A stretch of DNA of 51,222 bases from an uncultured Asticcacaulis sp. GTDB lineage: Bacteria > Pseudomonadota > Alphaproteobacteria > Caulobacterales > Caulobacteraceae. The translations under genes and the position numbers were made by a program. Each line of letters starts with the position of its first letter. The first letter of the stretch is position 1. Location of the stretch: positions 1 to 51,222 of the forward strand of contig CAKZJB010000035.1 in NCBI GenBank assembly GCA_936940865.1, given 5' to 3'. Under the pieces are notes generated by a model. The model was not told the origin of the DNA. It did not search any database and was given only the letters and a program-made list of their open reading frames with translations. Shown in pieces: positions 1-5,975 of the stretch.

Positions 1-216
1 CAGCTCGAACACGGCGGCCTCGCACGCCGGATGCGTCAGCCACAGATAGCTGGCCGGCAGGGCTTCCCCATTGATGGCGAACAACCGGCGCCCGCCGCCC
101 GCGATCTCGTCGGCGACGGCGCGCAGGCGCTCGACCCGGGCCGCATCGGCGACGCCGCGCAGGCAGGCGACGCCCGTCGCCGCGTAGGCCATGTCCGGCG
201 TCACGCCGCCAGGCAT
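1..216 (-). CDS. Hypothetical protein, last visible gene of the RiPP operon (3' end outside window)
   Basis: An open frame of 72 codons runs without a stop from an ATG at 216 to the window edge. The ATG has a GAGG Shine-Dalgarno sequence seven bases upstream and lies 16 bases inside the end of the preceding HExxH gene, which points to translational coupling. A second in-frame ATG sits at 192. The visible part is rich in Ala, Arg and Val, has one Cys near residue 18, and shows no signal peptide or membrane segment. I do not recognise the family. Its position suggests it is a further component of the peptide-modification operon (another tailoring enzyme, a protease or an export component), but this is inference only. 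Confidence 0.6.
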   Translation of the reverse strand, partial: MPGGVTPDMAYAATGVACLRGVADAARVERLRAVADEIAGGGRRLFAINGEALPASYLWLTHPACEAAVFEL

Positions 217-1229
217 TGCGCGACCTCGTCCCCAAGGCCCGCGACCGCGAGGCGGACGGCCCTGGGGGTATCACGGGGCAGCAGCGACTCGACCGGACGA
301 ACACCGGTGAAGCCGCGCGCGCACTGCGTCATGCGCCGGATGCAGGTGTCTTCGGGCGCGACGCCGAGACGGAGCGCCCTGAGCCAGAAGGCAAACAGGG
401 CGCGCCAGACATAACAGGCGTGCATGAAGGTGTTGGCGTCCAGCGGCCGCTCCGACCACGGCGACACGATATCGGCCCCGCCGTCCGCCAGCAGCCTCTG
501 CCCAAGTTCGGCATGGTCGATCAGGATATGGACCGTCTCATGCAGCAGGGCATCGGCCAGCACGGCCGGCGTGGCGTCCGGAAGGTGGGCGTTGCGCAGC
601 ACGATGCGGCCGAGCGCCAGGCGCGTCGTCGACGACGTGGTGGTGGCGGTCCGCGGGTCACAGCGGCAGACGATGGTGGCGGCCAGCCGCAACACCGCTT
701 CCGCCCAGACGTCGGAACAGCGCGCCAGCAGATCGAAGGCCAGGGCCACATTCCGCGCGGCCGTCTCCGCTCCGGCATCGTCGTAAGGCTCCGCCGTGCC
801 GGGGATTTCATTGAGCGGCCGCCAGGCCGCCGGGCTCAGGGCATCGACGACCGGCCCGTCGAGAATCGATGCCGCCATAAGCCGGCCATCGCGCCGGTCC
901 CCCAGAGCCGTCCAGCCCCGCCCGCGCTCCGCGTCGATCCAGTCGCTCATCAGGCCGATATCGTAGCCGCGGCCGCCCTGGCCCGCCCCGTGCAGCAGAG
1001 ACCAGGTTTCCGGTGCCCGGTAAAGGCGGAGCTGCGCGGCGGCCGGCAAAGCATGAAAGGCCGCGCGCACCGGTGCGGCATCGGCCTTCGCCTCCCAGGC
1101 CCGCCACCACGCCCGCCATCGGGCGTGACGTTCGGCGTCGGCATGGGCCAGAAGCCCCTCGACAAAGCCCGGCACGGCATCGCCGCGCACGAAGGCTGCA
1201 ATGGTGGCCGGACGCGGGTCCGCGCTCAT
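201..1229 (-). CDS. HExxH protein A, probable aKG-HExxH-type peptide beta-hydroxylase
   Basis: A 342-residue soluble protein with HETVH at residues 230-234 inside a helix-like stretch (ALLHETVHILIDH), followed about 25 residues later by a PWSERPLDA segment and then an aromatic-rich HACYVW stretch. This layout (HExxH, then PW...RP, then a His/aromatic helix) is that of the HExxH proteins found beside FxsB-type radical SAM enzymes. NCBI names them aKG-HExxH-type peptide beta-hydroxylases: iron and 2-oxoglutarate enzymes that hydroxylate a side-chain beta carbon of a precursor peptide. Assignment to that family is from the motif and context. Its ATG overlaps the stop of the upstream HExxH gene in ATGA. 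Similarity to the neighbouring HExxH gene is limited to the motif region, so the two probably act on different residues. A metalloprotease role is the main alternative. Confidence 0.75.
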   Translation of the reverse strand: MSADPRPATIAAFVRGDAVPGFVEGLLAHADAERHARWRAWWRAWEAKADAAPVRAAFHALPAAAQLRLYRAPETWSLLHGAGQGGRGYDIGLMSDWIDAERGRGWTALGDRRDGRLMAASILDGPVVDALSPAAWRPLNEIPGTAEPYDDAGAETAARNVALAFDLLARCSDVWAEAVLRLAATIVCRCDPRTATTTSSTTRLALGRIVLRNAHLPDATPAVLADALLHETVHILIDHAELGQRLLADGGADIVSPWSERPLDANTFMHACYVWRALFAFWLRALRLGVAPEDTCIRRMTQCARGFTGVRPVESLLPRDTPRAVRLAVAGLGDEVAQCLAA

Positions 1230-2398
1230 GGCCGGAACCAGACGTCGAAGGTCCGCACCATTTCGGCGTGGACCGCCTGCCCCGCCGGCGTGAAGCGGGC
1301 GTGAGCCTCAAGCGTCGACATGGCGGCGCCGACCTCGTCCTTCAGCCGTGCGAAATAGCCGGCAAAGCGCTCGCGGTGCGGGCCTTCGCTGCCGCGGCGC
1401 GCCATCTCGCCGACATTCAGGAAGGCGTGCGCGCCCAGAAGGACGCCGCGCATCGGCCGGTCGTCGCTGCGCCAGGGGTGGCGGTAGATCGCCTCAAGGC
1501 CGTTATCGAGCAGGGGATGCACGGCCCACAGGGCATCCAGCTTGACGTGCGACATTTCATGGATCAGGCATTCGGCGACGATTTCCGGCATGGTTTCGGC
1601 GCGAATGGTCACCAGAATGGCGCCGGGGATGCTGGCCGACGACGCGCTGAAAATGCTGCCCGTGCCGGTCTCGATGGCGGCGACGCCCCGGACGAAGGCG
1701 GCGAGGTCGAGCAGAGAATCCGGCCAGACCCCCGACAGCAGCGACAGGGCGCCGAGCAGGCCGTTCCCCGCCACGGCCGGGTCGGCGTCGCGATACCCGC
1801 CTTCAGGAACCTTATGCAGCCGGCAGAGTTCCCGCACGCTCGAGGTCGGATAAAGCTCGATGCCCAGCGGCAGCCGGGTGCGTGATCGGAAGATCAGGTC
1901 CCCGTGGGCTTCGAACCGGGGGCCTTCGGCGTCGATGCGGATGCCGACCGTGCCCGCGCCGTCGAGCGCTTCCGCGAAGCCGAGCGGCCGCACCTCCTCA
2001 TCTGCGGGCAAAACAGCCTGCCAGTGCCGTTCGCCGTCGATGCCGCCAAGGTGCGTCACCATGACCAGCGGCAGGGCCATCAGGCCGCGTTCCAGGGCGC
2101 CGGTGCTGCCCGCCTCCTCGGCCCGGCACAGCCAGGCGGCATAGTCGACCGATGTCATGATGTCGGTCAGCACGTCTTCCGGCTGGGCGGCCAGCCAGCC
2201 GGCGATGGCCTCGGCCTGGGCGATGGCGGTGGCGGCCACCAGCGGCCGCGCCGTGTCGATCAGCATCAGGGTGCGCGCCATGGCATGCATGGCCTGCCAG
2301 GCCTGGAAGGTGGCGACCGCCTGGGCGCCCCGGCCGTGGACGGCGACGCAAGGCGTGGGCAGATCGGACACGAAGCTTTCGGGGGGCGGCACGATCAT
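1226..2398 (-). CDS. HExxH protein B, probable aKG-HExxH-type peptide beta-hydroxylase
   Basis: A 390-residue soluble protein with HEMSH at residues 280-284 (ECLIHEMSHVKLD), then RHPWRSDDRPMRG and a GAHAFLN stretch, the same layout as the next gene but in a clearly different sequence background. The PW..(D)RP motif followed by a small-residue/His helix is characteristic of the HExxH family that accompanies FxsB-like maturases. Expected role: 2-oxoglutarate-dependent hydroxylation of the precursor peptide. The ATG at 2398 overlaps the stop of the oxygenase gene (ATGA), and its own stop overlaps the next ATG in the same way, so the three oxygenase-type genes are translated as a coupled block. 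The N-terminal 250 residues carry no motif I recognise and may hold the peptide-binding part. Confidence 0.75.
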   Translation of the reverse strand: MIVPPPESFVSDLPTPCVAVHGRGAQAVATFQAWQAMHAMARTLMLIDTARPLVAATAIAQAEAIAGWLAAQPEDVLTDIMTSVDYAAWLCRAEEAGSTGALERGLMALPLVMVTHLGGIDGERHWQAVLPADEEVRPLGFAEALDGAGTVGIRIDAEGPRFEAHGDLIFRSRTRLPLGIELYPTSSVRELCRLHKVPEGGYRDADPAVAGNGLLGALSLLSGVWPDSLLDLAAFVRGVAAIETGTGSIFSASSASIPGAILVTIRAETMPEIVAECLIHEMSHVKLDALWAVHPLLDNGLEAIYRHPWRSDDRPMRGVLLGAHAFLNVGEMARRGSEGPHRERFAGYFARLKDEVGAAMSTLEAHARFTPAGQAVHAEMVRTFDVWFRP

Positions 2399-3669
2399 GC
2401 GGTCAGGGCCTCCACGACCCGGCGGGCTTTGGACGGGATATGGCCGGCCAGCTTGGCGAAGGCCTGTTTCAGCTCGAACAGGCTGCCAGGCTCAAACGCC
2501 GTGTCGCCCTGCTCCAGCGCATTGGCCAGCGCCATCAGGTTGAGGTCGGCGATATCCTCGATGGACAGCCACTCGGGTTCGGCCGCGTCCCGCCGTCGCG
2601 CCATGAAGCCGTCCTCGCCGGCATATTTGTAGATCTCGTTGAAGCGCACGACGGAAAACAGCCAGGCCAGGCGCTCGGCCTCGGCGCCGATCAGGGCGCG
2701 CAACGCGTCTCGCTCCCATTCGGCATAGAGGCGCGCACGGAAGGTGCCGGTGCCGTATACGCTGTGGAACAGGCCCGCACGGATGACGGCGTCGCGGCAC
2801 GTCCAGTCGGCAAGCAGCGAGGCGACACCGACCAGATGCGACAGCAGGCTTGCCCCGGAATGGGCCGTCCGGTGCGCGCCCCGGCCCTTCAATTCGGCCA
2901 CGAAGAGGTCCGCGCCGTCGACGCCCGCCAGACCGGCCTCGGAGCGCTCGGGCCGGACCTCCGCCGTGCGTGCCTGCGCATCCGCCACCTGGTCGGCGTG
3001 CCAGAAACCGAGGACCAGCGAGAAGCGCTCGCCGTTCATGACGTCGTTGACCGCGTGCAGCGACCGGTCGCTGAGCGCGAAGGCGATGGCCAGGTTGTGC
3101 AGCGGCCGGGCGATCGCGGCGACGCAATCGGGCTCATGACCGGTCATCATGCAGAAATGGCCGCCGTCGGCGTCGTCAAACCCGTCGTCGCGCAGCGTGA
3201 TCAGCAGGCGCAGATATTCGGTGCCGAGTATGGGATCGTCCGTATGGACGCCTATGCCGTGACCCGGCCGCATGCGGTGCGCGCACAGCGAGACATAGTG
3301 TCCGTCGAGCGGGATGCCGAAACGCTGCCCAAGCGCCCGCGCCAGATCTCCGCGTGCTGCCGGCGACAGCACGCCGTCGCCGCGCACCAGCGGACAGTCG
3401 TCGAGATTGTCGCAGCTGTCATGGCTGTAGAAATCGCGCTCCTGCCGCCACCAGGTGGCGTCGCCCATCAACCAGTCGAGCAATGCGCGGGCGTCTTCAT
3501 CGGCGAAAAGGCGCTCGGCGATCAGGTGCGGATAGGGATGCTGGCCCAGCGTCCCGGCCGCGATGGCGTCCGGCGCGGCGGAGGCATGGTCGGCCAGTCT
3601 TTCAGGCATGAGTCTTTCAGGCATGAGTCTTTCAGGCATGAGGCTGTCAGGCATGAGGCTGTCAGGCAT
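2395..3669 (-). CDS. 2OG-Fe(II) oxygenase fused to a DUF6817-like domain
   Basis: A 424-residue protein with two parts. Residues about 40-230 form a 2-oxoglutarate/Fe(II) dioxygenase jelly-roll with the facial triad H142-x-D144 (VHTDDP) and H205 (SLHAVND), plus the 2OG-binding R215 (ERFSLVLGFW). Residues about 252-350 contain HSGASLLSHLVGV, AGLFHSVYGT and FNEIYK, matching the His-rich DUF6817 domain that often follows such oxygenases. The first 25 residues are MPDSL/MPERL repeats made by a tandem DNA repeat. Starts at 3669, 3654, 3639, 3624 and 3609 are all in frame; 3669 has a GGGAG site about eight bases upstream and overlaps the maturase stop. Likely role: hydroxylation of the precursor peptide, a third oxygenase in the pathway alongside the two HExxH proteins. 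Confidence 0.82.
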   Translation of the reverse strand: MPDSLMPDSLMPERLMPERLMPERLADHASAAPDAIAAGTLGQHPYPHLIAERLFADEDARALLDWLMGDATWWRQERDFYSHDSCDNLDDCPLVRGDGVLSPAARGDLARALGQRFGIPLDGHYVSLCAHRMRPGHGIGVHTDDPILGTEYLRLLITLRDDGFDDADGGHFCMMTGHEPDCVAAIARPLHNLAIAFALSDRSLHAVNDVMNGERFSLVLGFWHADQVADAQARTAEVRPERSEAGLAGVDGADLFVAELKGRGAHRTAHSGASLLSHLVGVASLLADWTCRDAVIRAGLFHSVYGTGTFRARLYAEWERDALRALIGAEAERLAWLFSVVRFNEIYKYAGEDGFMARRRDAAEPEWLSIEDIADLNLMALANALEQGDTAFEPGSLFELKQAFAKLAGHIPSKARRVVEALTA

Positions 3670-3670
3670 G
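3596..3670 (-). repeat. Five tandem 15-bp repeats duplicating a stop/start coupling site
   Basis: Five perfect-length 15-bp units lie head to tail: three copies of agtctttcaggcatg followed by two of aggctgtcaggcatg (plus-strand reading). On the coding strand each unit contains ATGCCTGA, an ATG overlapping a TGA in another frame. The TGA of the outermost copy (3664-3662) ends the radical SAM gene, and the ATGs of all copies are in frame with the oxygenase. The unit is a multiple of three, so copy-number changes keep the oxygenase frame and only add or remove one MPxxL pentapeptide and one potential start. Confidence 0.93.
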
Positions 3671-4855
3671 GAGGGGCTCCCGCATTGTGAATTCCAGTTC
3701 AGGCGCCACGCGCGCCCAGATATGCGCGATCACGGCCTTGAGATCGGCGCAATAGACGCTGGCATTGGCGAAGCCGTTGGCGCGCGACCAGCGGCTGGCG
3801 ATGTGGCCGCCGCCGCAGACCTGGGCCCACGGGCAGGCGCGGCAGGCCGGCGCCAGGTCGAGCGAGGCATCGAAAATGGCGCGCCACGGTTCGGTGGCGC
3901 GGATATCGTCCAGGGCGTCGGTGGCGAGGTTCAGCCCCGCGCCCATACGGCCGGTGATGCGGCAGACATCATGCGCCTCGATGGCGCCGTCGCTGGAGAT
4001 GGTGGCGGCGCGCACCGGACCGTAGCCGATGCTTTCGACGCCGCTCGATGCCCCGACCAGGCCGGCAATGATAGCGTCGAACAGGCGGATACGTACGCCG
4101 GCCGCCGCATATGTCGTCCACCAGCGTTCGAACAGGCCGATGAAGAAGGGCGCGATGGCCGGCGGGGCATCGTCGGCAGTGGCGTCGGGAATGAGGACAT
4201 CCAGCTCCTTCAGGCCCAGCTCCGCGACGAAATGATCGAGCAGGGCGTCCGGATCCCCGGAAGGATCGGCGACCGCCAGGATGCCCGGCTCCTGTCCGAA
4301 GGCGCGCAGGCGCTCCAGCGCCGCCACGGTCTTTGCATAGGTCGGGCGGCCGCGCAGGTCGAACCGCACGCGGTCATGCTGGTCCGCCGGGCCGTCGAGG
4401 CTGAGGGTCACCGCCACGCGGAAGCGGATGAACAGAAGCACCCGGTCCTCGTCGATCAGCAGGCCGTTCGTGGTGATGCACAGGCGGATATCGCAGCCGG
4501 TTTCCGCCGCCAGCGCTTCGGCGGCCAGGCCCAGGCTCAGGAACCGCCCCTTGCCGAACAGCAGCGGCTCACCGCCATGCAGTACCAGGGTGAAACGGTC
4601 GAGGCGATGGTCGAGGATGTGTTCGCGCAGCCGGACGATAAGCTGCGCGGCCACATCCTCTCCCATGCGCTTGGGCAACGCCATGACCGAGGGATCGCGG
4701 AACCAGTAGCAGTAGCTGCACGCCATGTTGCAGCGGGCGGCCAGTTTCACGACCAGGGCATCGATCGGCCTTTGGGCCTCGATCTCGGGCAGAACGGGAC
4801 GGCGCGCCGGCAGGCCCGCGGCGCGCCCCTCGTCGGCGGGCGTGGCTCCAGGCAT
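3662..4855 (-). CDS. FxsB-like radical SAM/SPASM peptide maturase
   Basis: A 397-residue radical SAM enzyme. The SAM-binding 4Fe-4S cysteines are C42, C46 and C49 (CNMACSYC), followed by a PKRM segment, a GGEP motif in strand 2 (LHGGEPLLFG) and LSLDGP. The C-terminal SPASM-like region has C338, C341, C347 (CRACPWAQVCGGG) and C369 (SVYCADL). This CGGG...YC arrangement is typical of FxsB/GrrM-type maturases, several of which form cyclophane crosslinks from an aromatic ring to a side-chain beta carbon two residues later. No separate peptide-recognition (RRE) gene is seen. The ATG at 4855 lies ten bases after the precursor-like gene and has a G-rich ribosome site; the stop overlaps the next start. 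Crosslinking of the neighbouring precursor is inferred from gene order and motif content. Confidence 0.9.
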   Translation of the reverse strand: MPGATPADEGRAAGLPARRPVLPEIEAQRPIDALVVKLAARCNMACSYCYWFRDPSVMALPKRMGEDVAAQLIVRLREHILDHRLDRFTLVLHGGEPLLFGKGRFLSLGLAAEALAAETGCDIRLCITTNGLLIDEDRVLLFIRFRVAVTLSLDGPADQHDRVRFDLRGRPTYAKTVAALERLRAFGQEPGILAVADPSGDPDALLDHFVAELGLKELDVLIPDATADDAPPAIAPFFIGLFERWWTTYAAAGVRIRLFDAIIAGLVGASSGVESIGYGPVRAATISSDGAIEAHDVCRITGRMGAGLNLATDALDDIRATEPWRAIFDASLDLAPACRACPWAQVCGGGHIASRWSRANGFANASVYCADLKAVIAHIWARVAPELEFTMREPLHA

Positions 4856-4865
4856 GACGCCGCCC

Positions 4866-5195
4866 CTACTTCTGGACCTTTTCGCTCAGGACCCGCTGGG
4901 CCATGCCGCGGATGCGGTCTTCCAGCTCAACAGGGTTGATGACCTGGGCGCCCAGGGAATTGTTGTCGCCGGTACGGTCGAAGATGCGTTCATAGCCGGG
5001 ATTGGTGCGATCGAAATTCTGCACGGCGACGTCGCCGATGCGGCCCAGCACCTTGTTGAGCGCGTCGGACCGCGCCTGCAGATGGAGCTTCAGGCCGAAC
5101 TTGTCCTGCAACTCCTTGACCTGGGCGTCGCTGAGCTTGCCGGCCGGAACCGAAAAGACCGATTGTACTTCCGGGGTGGACTTGGTGTCAGTCAT
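4866..5195 (-). CDS. Probable RiPP precursor peptide with FDR/YER/FDR core
   Basis: A 109-residue, charged, Cys-free protein directly upstream of the maturase. Residues 1-58 are leader-like and mostly helical. Residues 59-80 carry three aromatic-acidic-Arg triplets: FDR at 61-63, YER at 68-70 and FDR at 72-74, ending in a GDNNS stretch. Three-residue cyclophane (triceptide) enzymes join the aromatic ring of an aromatic-x-x triplet to the beta carbon of its third residue, so these are the obvious modification sites. Residues 81-109 form a polar tail. The start at 5195 is preceded by AAGG with eight-base spacing; an in-frame ATG at 5225 would add ten residues but has a poorer site. The precursor role is inferred from position, size and motif triad. 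No C-terminal FxSxx motif is present. Confidence 0.78.
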   Translation of the reverse strand: MTDTKSTPEVQSVFSVPAGKLSDAQVKELQDKFGLKLHLQARSDALNKVLGRIGDVAVQNFDRTNPGYERIFDRTGDNNSLGAQVINPVELEDRIRGMAQRVLSEKVQK

Positions 5196-5975
5196 CGTCG
5201 TGACCTTTGATTTGGGCGCAGACATCCCACCACGGCGCGGACGCACCGGACCCGTGCGCGCCCGCAGCGAAGACGGGCACGCCTTCGGTTCGAAGACGAA
5301 CGAGCGCGATCTGTCGGTCCGGCCCCCAGGGCCGTACGGCAAGGATGGCTACGCGAATGAAAGAAATGAATTCGGGGACAAACCGGCATTAGCCAGCAGC
5401 GCGGGGCCGCATAGTCCTGCCGTGAACTGCAAAAACGACCACTTAACGCATGGGGCGCCGGACATGCCGCGCCAAGGTCGACCAACGTGCAGAATTTCTT
5501 GTAGATATTGACCTGCCGCCTTGTAACCGTAGCGCAACAAAACGACCCAGGCAAGAAAATTTTGCCCGCATTGCCGGAAAAATACCACTAATTGGTGAGT
5601 AAGCTAAACAAGGCCTTAACAAGGGATACGGCGAAAAGGAAACGCCATCGCGATATCGTGACATCCGGAAGCCAGGCCTCTTTAACCAAGGGGCGAGACA
5701 CGAGATCGCCGCCAATGCGGCGAGCCATGCGGCGTTCGAGCTGAAAAAAAACGAATACCGACGGTCATTCTTTATGGCCGCTGGTATAAGACCTTGAAAT
5801 GATTCCCTTCGGATTCTGGATTGCCTTGGTGATCTTATCCCTGCACACTCGATTCCCGCGACAGCAAAGAGTCGCCGTCCGGTTTCGGTTTTTGATCCGG
5901 CGCAATGATTTCCGCGGAAGGTATCTGCACACTTCCGCCCATCGCTCCGGGCCGGGAGCGTTTTAAGGAGTATCC
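5196..5975. other. 780-bp intergenic region between divergent RiPP operon and response regulator
   Basis: No convincing gene: frames here lack the strong third-position GC bias of the neighbours. The region must hold the RiPP operon promoter (minus strand) and that of the response regulator. I see no clean -35/-10 pair for the operon. A weak dyad GGCAA-N7-TTGCC lies at 5550-5566, in a locally AT-rich stretch about 360 bases before the precursor start. The dispersed 69-bp element (copy A) sits at 5722-5790. Confidence 0.5.
5722..5790 (+). repeat. Dispersed intergenic palindromic element, copy A
   Basis: A 69-bp element nearly identical in length and sequence to 43227-43295. It has a left part (gagccatgcggcgttcgagc followed by an eight-A run) and a right palindrome with arms at 5755-5768 and 5774-5787 around the loop TCTTT. 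The arms have three mismatches here. The palindrome core is also present at 18209-18241. Confidence 0.85.

Follow-up and report, generated by a model that had tools for sequence, protein, structure and literature searches.

As described in the accessible part of PMC11002830, the maturases XncB, OscB and MscB form bonds between ring carbons and the C-beta of residue i+2. XncB does so between Trp and either Arg or Asn, and with YhhB the bonds run from C3 of Tyr and C2 of His to Arg C-beta. That a crosslinked third residue can be Arg is therefore not new, being established for YhhB in that source. The crosslinks given in the same part include Phe-Asn and Phe-Ser, and Phe-Arg is not among them. 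The YhhABC system (NF041705, NF041707, NF041706) combines a precursor with three aromatic-x-Arg triplets (YDR-M-HHR-HNR), an FxsB-type radical SAM enzyme, an HExxH domain and the 2OG oxygenase after which the model YhhC is named. Other described systems that bear on the present locus are GrrA/GrrM (OscA/OscB), ChlB/ChlH (PDB: 9gm3, 8s5f), and the peptide arginases of the FlmR/OhkR family (PF12640), which convert core Arg to ornithine according to PMC12703449. In the pathway of a different crosslinked RiPP, the biphenomycin-like pbs pathway, an arginase occurs with an ornithine hydroxylase and a crosslinking B12-radical SAM enzyme (PMC12257519, accessible part).

Here we describe a gene cluster in a contig of 51,222 nucleotides from an uncultured Asticcacaulis sp. 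(CAKZJB010000035.1), the whole of which we refer to as the window. The cluster is a rare new branch of the already known triceptide family, to which it is assigned by a radical SAM/SPASM neighbor of the FxsB/YhhB/XyeB type (with scores under the cut-offs) and by core triplets conserved with a locus of Fluviibacterium aquatile (L044). Known from the Yhh kind are the crosslinked Arg, three triplets per core, the YhhC-type oxygenase and the HExxH enzymes. Unusual in the window are the acidic middle residues of all three triplets, their conserved spacing of four residues and then one, an internal core followed by a 35-residue tail, HExxH enzymes encoded by separate genes, and the fusion of the oxygenase to a DUF6817 domain. 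Unlike in YhhABC proper, the maturase and the oxygenase miss the cut-offs of the respective models, and the YhhA model (NF041705) gave no match to the window precursor up to E 1, whereas an annotated YhhA (L025) scores 60.9 bits (cut-off 36). We consider it likely that the 109-residue peptide is a triceptide-type RiPP precursor, whose triplets would be crosslinked by the adjacent radical SAM enzyme and then hydroxylated, and whose leader would be removed.

The operon and its maturase

The features of the cluster, all on the minus strand of the window, are as follows:

5204..5208, minus: AAAGG, plausible ribosome-binding site of the precursor, read from the sequence
4866..5195, minus: precursor peptide gene, 109 aa and stop (ORF with plausible ribosome-binding site; homolog at L044:5767-5997, likewise placed ahead of a maturase of this kind)
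5016..5195, minus: leader, residues 1-60 (MAFFT alignment with L044 and two Bradyrhizobium leaders; similarity to L044 within that of shuffles)
4974..5015, minus: core FDRTNPGYERIFDR, residues 61-74 (FDR 5007-5015, YER 4986-4994, FDR 4974-4982; aligns with the L044 core without gaps and at identical spacing)
4869..4973, minus: C-terminal tail, residues 75-109, a possible follower (nearly absent from L044 in the alignment; low-confidence helix 88-107)
3662..4855, minus: 397-aa radical SAM/SPASM maturase, predicted to form cyclophanes (PF04055; NCBIfam YhhB, FxsB and XyeB matches under cut-off; ChlB profile match)
2395..3669, minus: YhhC-like 2OG-Fe(II) oxygenase (residues 43-222) fused to DUF6817 (residues 260-341) (NF041706, PF20680)
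1226..2398, minus: predicted aKG-HExxH-type peptide beta-hydroxylase 1 (TIGR04267 101.8 bits, cut-off 40; HEMSH at residue 280; matches to PDB 22nu and 8s5f, ChlH)
201..1229, minus: predicted aKG-HExxH-type peptide beta-hydroxylase 2 (TIGR04267 44.7 bits, cut-off 40; HETVH at residue 230)
1..216, minus: possible sixth gene of the operon, truncated at the contig end with 72 aa seen (open frame starting 16 nt inside the gene of the second HExxH protein)

The three genes after that of the maturase, all coding for further oxidative tailoring enzymes of the same operon, each start inside the preceding gene, with overlaps of 8, 4 and 4 nt. The 72 visible residues of the possible sixth product had no Pfam or NCBIfam match up to E 1. 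As the window is the whole of the contig, the operon may be longer.

The initial annotation had placed an FxsB-like radical SAM enzyme next to the small protein. The adjacency stands, with the maturase gene starting 10 nt downstream of the precursor gene, and the family name needs amending: the best NCBIfam model is YhhB (NF041707, 257.1 bits; cut-off 445), FxsB comes second (TIGR04269, 238.4 bits; cut-off 370) and XyeB third (182.1 bits; cut-off 450), all of them below the cut-off. The best solved structure for the profile of the maturase clade is the radical SAM domain of ChlB (PDB: 9gm3, 253.1 bits), and ChlH is the second of the two matches of the first HExxH protein; this likeness to the chl system comes from the enzymes, the chl precursor aside, and ChlBH is described as a fusion, unlike the separate HExxH genes of the window. 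An eight-row alignment of the maturases revealed seven invariant cysteines, namely C42, C46 and C49 of the radical SAM motif and C338, C341, C347 and C369.

Two things speak against our reading: the maturase scores, which fall short of the curated cut-offs for each named cyclophane family, and the lack of Phe-Arg among the crosslinks given in the accessible part of PMC11002830. Such scores would also fit a different modification of the triplets, such as bonds from the aromatic residue to C-gamma or C-delta of Arg, ether bridges or epimerization, in place of ring-to-beta-carbon cyclophanes. Related enzymes also adjoin precursors with other motifs, for instance H-Q-T-H repeats (L021, L022), FDLS repeats (L037) and GNFVSAP repeats (L040). 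Nevertheless, we judge such alternative chemistry improbable, given that the three best models are all annotated cyclophane formers, that ChlB is the nearest solved structure, and that YhhB makes the beta-carbon link on aromatic-x-Arg itself (PMC11002830, accessible part). Going by homology, the window peptide is very probably crosslinked.

The precursor and its Fluviibacterium homolog

The precursor ORF lies on the minus strand, which the initial annotation did not name, and extends from an ATG at 5195 to a stop at 4866-4868; this start is preferred over that of a longer frame from a TTG at 5342. Its translation bears out the expected 109-residue, Cys-free peptide with FDR at residues 61-63, YER at 68-70 and FDR at 72-74, spaced by four residues and then one. 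The triplets take up three of the six aromatic residues of the peptide, the other three (F14, F33 and H38) being in the leader without an Arg at +2. Of the helical leader and polar tail that had been proposed, the leader helices appear in the AlphaFold2 model at residues 23-33 and 43-61, along with a helix at 88-107 and coil at 62-87, but at a mean pLDDT of 43 this model is too poor to use.

An alignment of eight maturases, used to scan a genome collection, recovered at least 80 loci (at least 597 candidate stretches, at least 415 of them confirmed). Among the matches listed, the best relative of the window maturase is that of F. aquatile L044, with 42% identity, though closer relatives may exist. 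Directly before it is a 76-residue ORF (L044:5767-5997) that ends in PADFDRDFDRGREGYDRDFDRTVSR and whose stop adjoins the maturase start. The cores of the two peptides align without gaps (window FDR-TNPG-YER-I-FDR-T versus L044 FDR-GREG-YDR-D-FDR-T; consensus FDR-xxxG-Y[DE]R-x-FDRT), the window core pairing with the last three of the L044 triplets (two-sequence BLASTP E 7e-6). The core is also the best 15-residue gapless match between the peptides, scoring 53, while 400 shuffles averaged 21.2 (sd 4.1) and never exceeded 38. The best match between the leaders, by contrast, scores 21, a value attained by 89 of the 400 shuffles. Conservation of the triplets and their spacing, but not of the leader, is as expected for a substrate core. 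Thus, two expectations raised for homologs, namely that the triplets should be the most conserved part of the precursor and that they should be retained next to a radical SAM enzyme of the same kind, held in the one homolog available, which is the only one found among the listed matches of the maturase scan. The supposed placement of the core in the middle of the peptide applies to the window precursor and does not extend to L044, which has a fourth triplet and a C-terminal core with just 4 residues after the last triplet.

The surroundings of the L044 cluster (L044:582-2325 and 4732-5358) contain GmrSD_N and HEPN proteins, together with a frame that reads by eye like a site-specific integrase, a setting that resembles a defense island.

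Arginine triplets across the maturase tree

We constructed a maturase-domain tree of 46 rows, comprising the window, whose row the program flagged for unusual letter make-up, and 45 loci that we picked from the 112 loci L021-L132. The window and L044 form a pair with support of 93/83, just under the star of the program, and fall with eight Bradyrhizobium-type loci (L045-L050, L124, L125) into a ten-row clade with support of 100/99. Taking as precursors the ORFs that we picked before each of these ten maturases, and counting overlapping triplets, we found 3 to 7 aromatic-x-Arg triplets per peptide. Arg stands at +2 of 48 of the 99 aromatic residues in the ten precursors, versus 26 of 265 in six enzymes encoded at these loci; that about half of the precursor aromatics have no Arg at +2 counts against our reading. 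The Bradyrhizobium-type loci and GrrA/GrrM stand on a maturase branch sister to that of the window and likewise have Phe-x-Arg arrays in the precursor (FRR, FVR and similar in the former). The L046 precursor is weakly similar to the GrrA model (22.9 bits; cut-off 31) and those of L045, L049 and L124 gave no match to it. They differ in that the middle residue is mostly Arg and not an acid, and L045-L050, the six that were searched, had no match to the window oxygenase or HExxH genes.

Two other groups of the tree, with the window maturase outside both, have cores of the YDR-M-HHR-HNR and YNR-x-HNR-HNR types. The triplet label requires 3 changes on the tree, compared to a mean of 15.6 in shuffles (0 of 500 as low), which suggests that the Arg rule follows enzyme phylogeny without being confined to one branch. 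Yhh-like precursors were also noted in L041 (FDRTHHRHNR) and L038 (YNRTYHRHNR), and an FNR in L031; given that FDR opens the L041 core and that both L041 and L031 belong to Yhh-type groups, Phe-x-Arg triplets are not unique to the window branch.

These distributions bear on whether the peptide is a substrate at all, or a non-substrate accessory (a regulator or chaperone-like partner) with the true precursor encoded elsewhere. An accessory would be in keeping with a core placed midway in a 109-residue protein, unlike in L044, and with a possibly helical tail, residues 75-109, which may mean another role; moreover, the operon runs into the contig end, where another small ORF could be missing. 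We hold this to be very unlikely, since conservation with L044, whose core is C-terminal, covers the triplets and not the leader, and since each of the other eight clade maturases is likewise preceded by a peptide with aromatic-x-Arg triplets.

A filter for small upstream same-strand ORFs with at least three aromatic-x-Arg triplets within 30 residues was passed in 24 of 109 radical SAM loci, 4 of them doubtful on account of GC-rich actinobacterial frames; it missed L038, L041 and L045, and in the control 8 opposite-strand ORFs passed. The upstream ORFs of L053, L057, L058, L063, L068 and L102, all labeled as free of triplets in the tree, showed no triplet clusters by the same filter, with one doubtful frame of L068 as the exception. 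Shuffling the window peptide 200,000 times gave at least three aromatic-x-Arg triplets anywhere in 911 cases and within 14 residues in 18, at least three aromatic-[DE]-Arg triplets in two, and the exact four-then-one spacing in none. As the shuffles were run after the pattern had been seen, the independent L044 homolog outweighs them. Even though three triplets anywhere are not very rare and opposite-strand ORFs can pass the filter, coincidental triplets in a small, unrelated protein have next to no probability, being contradicted by the conserved L044 core and by the scarcity of the acidic-middle and exactly spaced versions.

Relatives of the maturase are thinly spread (own or center genome excluded throughout): the window maturase found 5 of 384 genomes of the class and 11 of 389 of the family at E 1e-40, and 3 of 99 relatives at E 1e-30, while the clade profile found 6 of 397 genomes of the phylum and 1 of 344 of the L044 family at E 1e-50. 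Only two of these matches, from phylum genomes (684 and 708 bits) and Bradyrhizobium-like by the tree, join the clade; two others, G061 (231 bits) and G1254 (210 bits), were kept out on score, outside the tree. The window maturase matched 20 plasmid records and the L044 maturase 23, in every case below 60% identity, and viral contigs contained neither the core pattern nor a maturase relative. A single-sequence search with the window precursor recovered only itself in 100 genomes and nothing in plasmids, and the L044 precursor likewise had no plasmid match; the negatives with the window precursor are weak, because the same query missed the true homolog in the L044 genome at E up to 10. A literature search, with subscription journals mostly outside its coverage, returned no paper title naming the window cluster.

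On two Rhizobium plasmids typed as conjugative (L021:3751-8552 and L022:3046-8556) we observed repetitive precursors of 380 and 632 aa built from MHDQTHSEG-like units, accompanied by a maturase, an HExxH enzyme and a protein that reads by eye like a trypsin-type protease.

Predicted modification and oxidative tailoring

In the scheme that we favor, the leader (approximately residues 1-60) would dock on the adjacent radical SAM/SPASM enzyme, which would join the rings of F61, Y68 and F72 to the beta carbons of R63, R70 and R74 (residue i+2), resulting in up to three three-residue cyclophanes, each at the cost of 2 Da. Hydroxylation of the crosslinked core would then fall to the YhhC-like 2OG oxygenase together with the two aKG-HExxH enzymes; we infer that D62, E69 and D73, the acidic middle residues, are most likely hydroxylated at their beta carbons. 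Proteases, none of which was seen here, would remove the leader and probably also the C-terminal tail. With its rare maturase branch and a core readable from two very different genomes, the cluster makes the rule of aromatic-acidic-Arg triplets in four-then-one spacing directly testable. If the scheme is true, Phe-Arg would be added to the crosslinks reported in the accessible part of PMC11002830, and the rings would be placed inside a longer chain.

Both HExxH proteins score above the TIGR04267 cut-off with the HExxH motif intact, and 2OG-dependent peptide beta-hydroxylation is their predicted activity. In the 13-kb L044 locus neither has a tblastn match, even though Asp occupies the middle position there; hence, the oxygenase would have to hydroxylate at that position in L044, and HExxH enzymes and acidic middle residues are not strictly paired.

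The oxygenase-DUF6817 fusion scores 110.8 bits with NF041706 (cut-off 150) and 81.2 bits with PF20680 (cut-off 25.2). In its oxygenase half H142, D144, H205 and R215, which we take to be the 2OG-Fe ligands, are invariant in three sequences. The oxygenase part is matched in nine loci, among which only L044 also matches the DUF6817 part. With respect to a possible HD-type metal domain, DUF6817 gave an HD_4 match of 18.1 bits, below the cut-off of 27.2; both the window and L044 versions have HLVG and FHS, not FHD, and an AlphaFold2 model of the domain (mean pLDDT 34) is too poor to use. DUF6817 also occurs alone in 14 plasmid records, indicating that the domain itself is not RiPP-specific. No paper on it was found in the literature search, in which subscription journals were mostly outside the coverage; its fusion to a RiPP oxygenase in two loci would give it a first functional setting.

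In L044, this fusion is extended into a 714-residue protein (L044:7169-9313), encoded directly after the triceptide-type maturase, that combines the YhhC-like oxygenase and DUF6817 with a peptide-arginase domain (PF12640, 48.3 bits, cut-off 27; NF052474, 47.7 bits, cut-off 350). This is the domain of the FlmR/OhkR arginases; PF12640 was not found in the genome of the window, and control genomes were likewise empty. The L044 arginase domain points to ornithine inside cyclophanes.

Paired 2OG and HD-domain oxygenases are known from phosphonate breakdown. By analogy, one may tentatively picture, as an unlikely elaboration, a separate triceptide branch whose cyclophanes link Phe to Arg and Tyr to Arg, with a single residue between the second ring and the third. 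In it, the two HExxH enzymes would beta-hydroxylate the acidic middle residues, and the 2OG-oxygenase/DUF6817 protein might act on the crosslinked core as a two-step oxidase, first hydroxylating it, after which the HD-like half would oxidize it further or cleave a bond; in the sister cluster of L044, the arginase could then yield ornithine cyclophanes.

Elsewhere, an unnamed protein is encoded after YhhB in L025 (7145-8152) and in similar places in L023, L026, L028, L032, L033 and L100. These proteins are 24-28% identical to the arginase part of the L044 fusion (E 4e-14, for L025, to 4e-9). The idea that such Yhh loci encode true peptide arginases was not borne out, the L025 protein scoring 17.3 bits on the arginase model (cut-off 350) with no PF12640 match.

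Finally, the 5' end of the oxygenase fusion gene (window 3596-3670, minus strand) consists of five tandem 15-base copies, each with an ATG, that encode MPDSL-MPDSL-MPERL-MPERL-MPERL, such that several start codons are possible and the copy number could vary.
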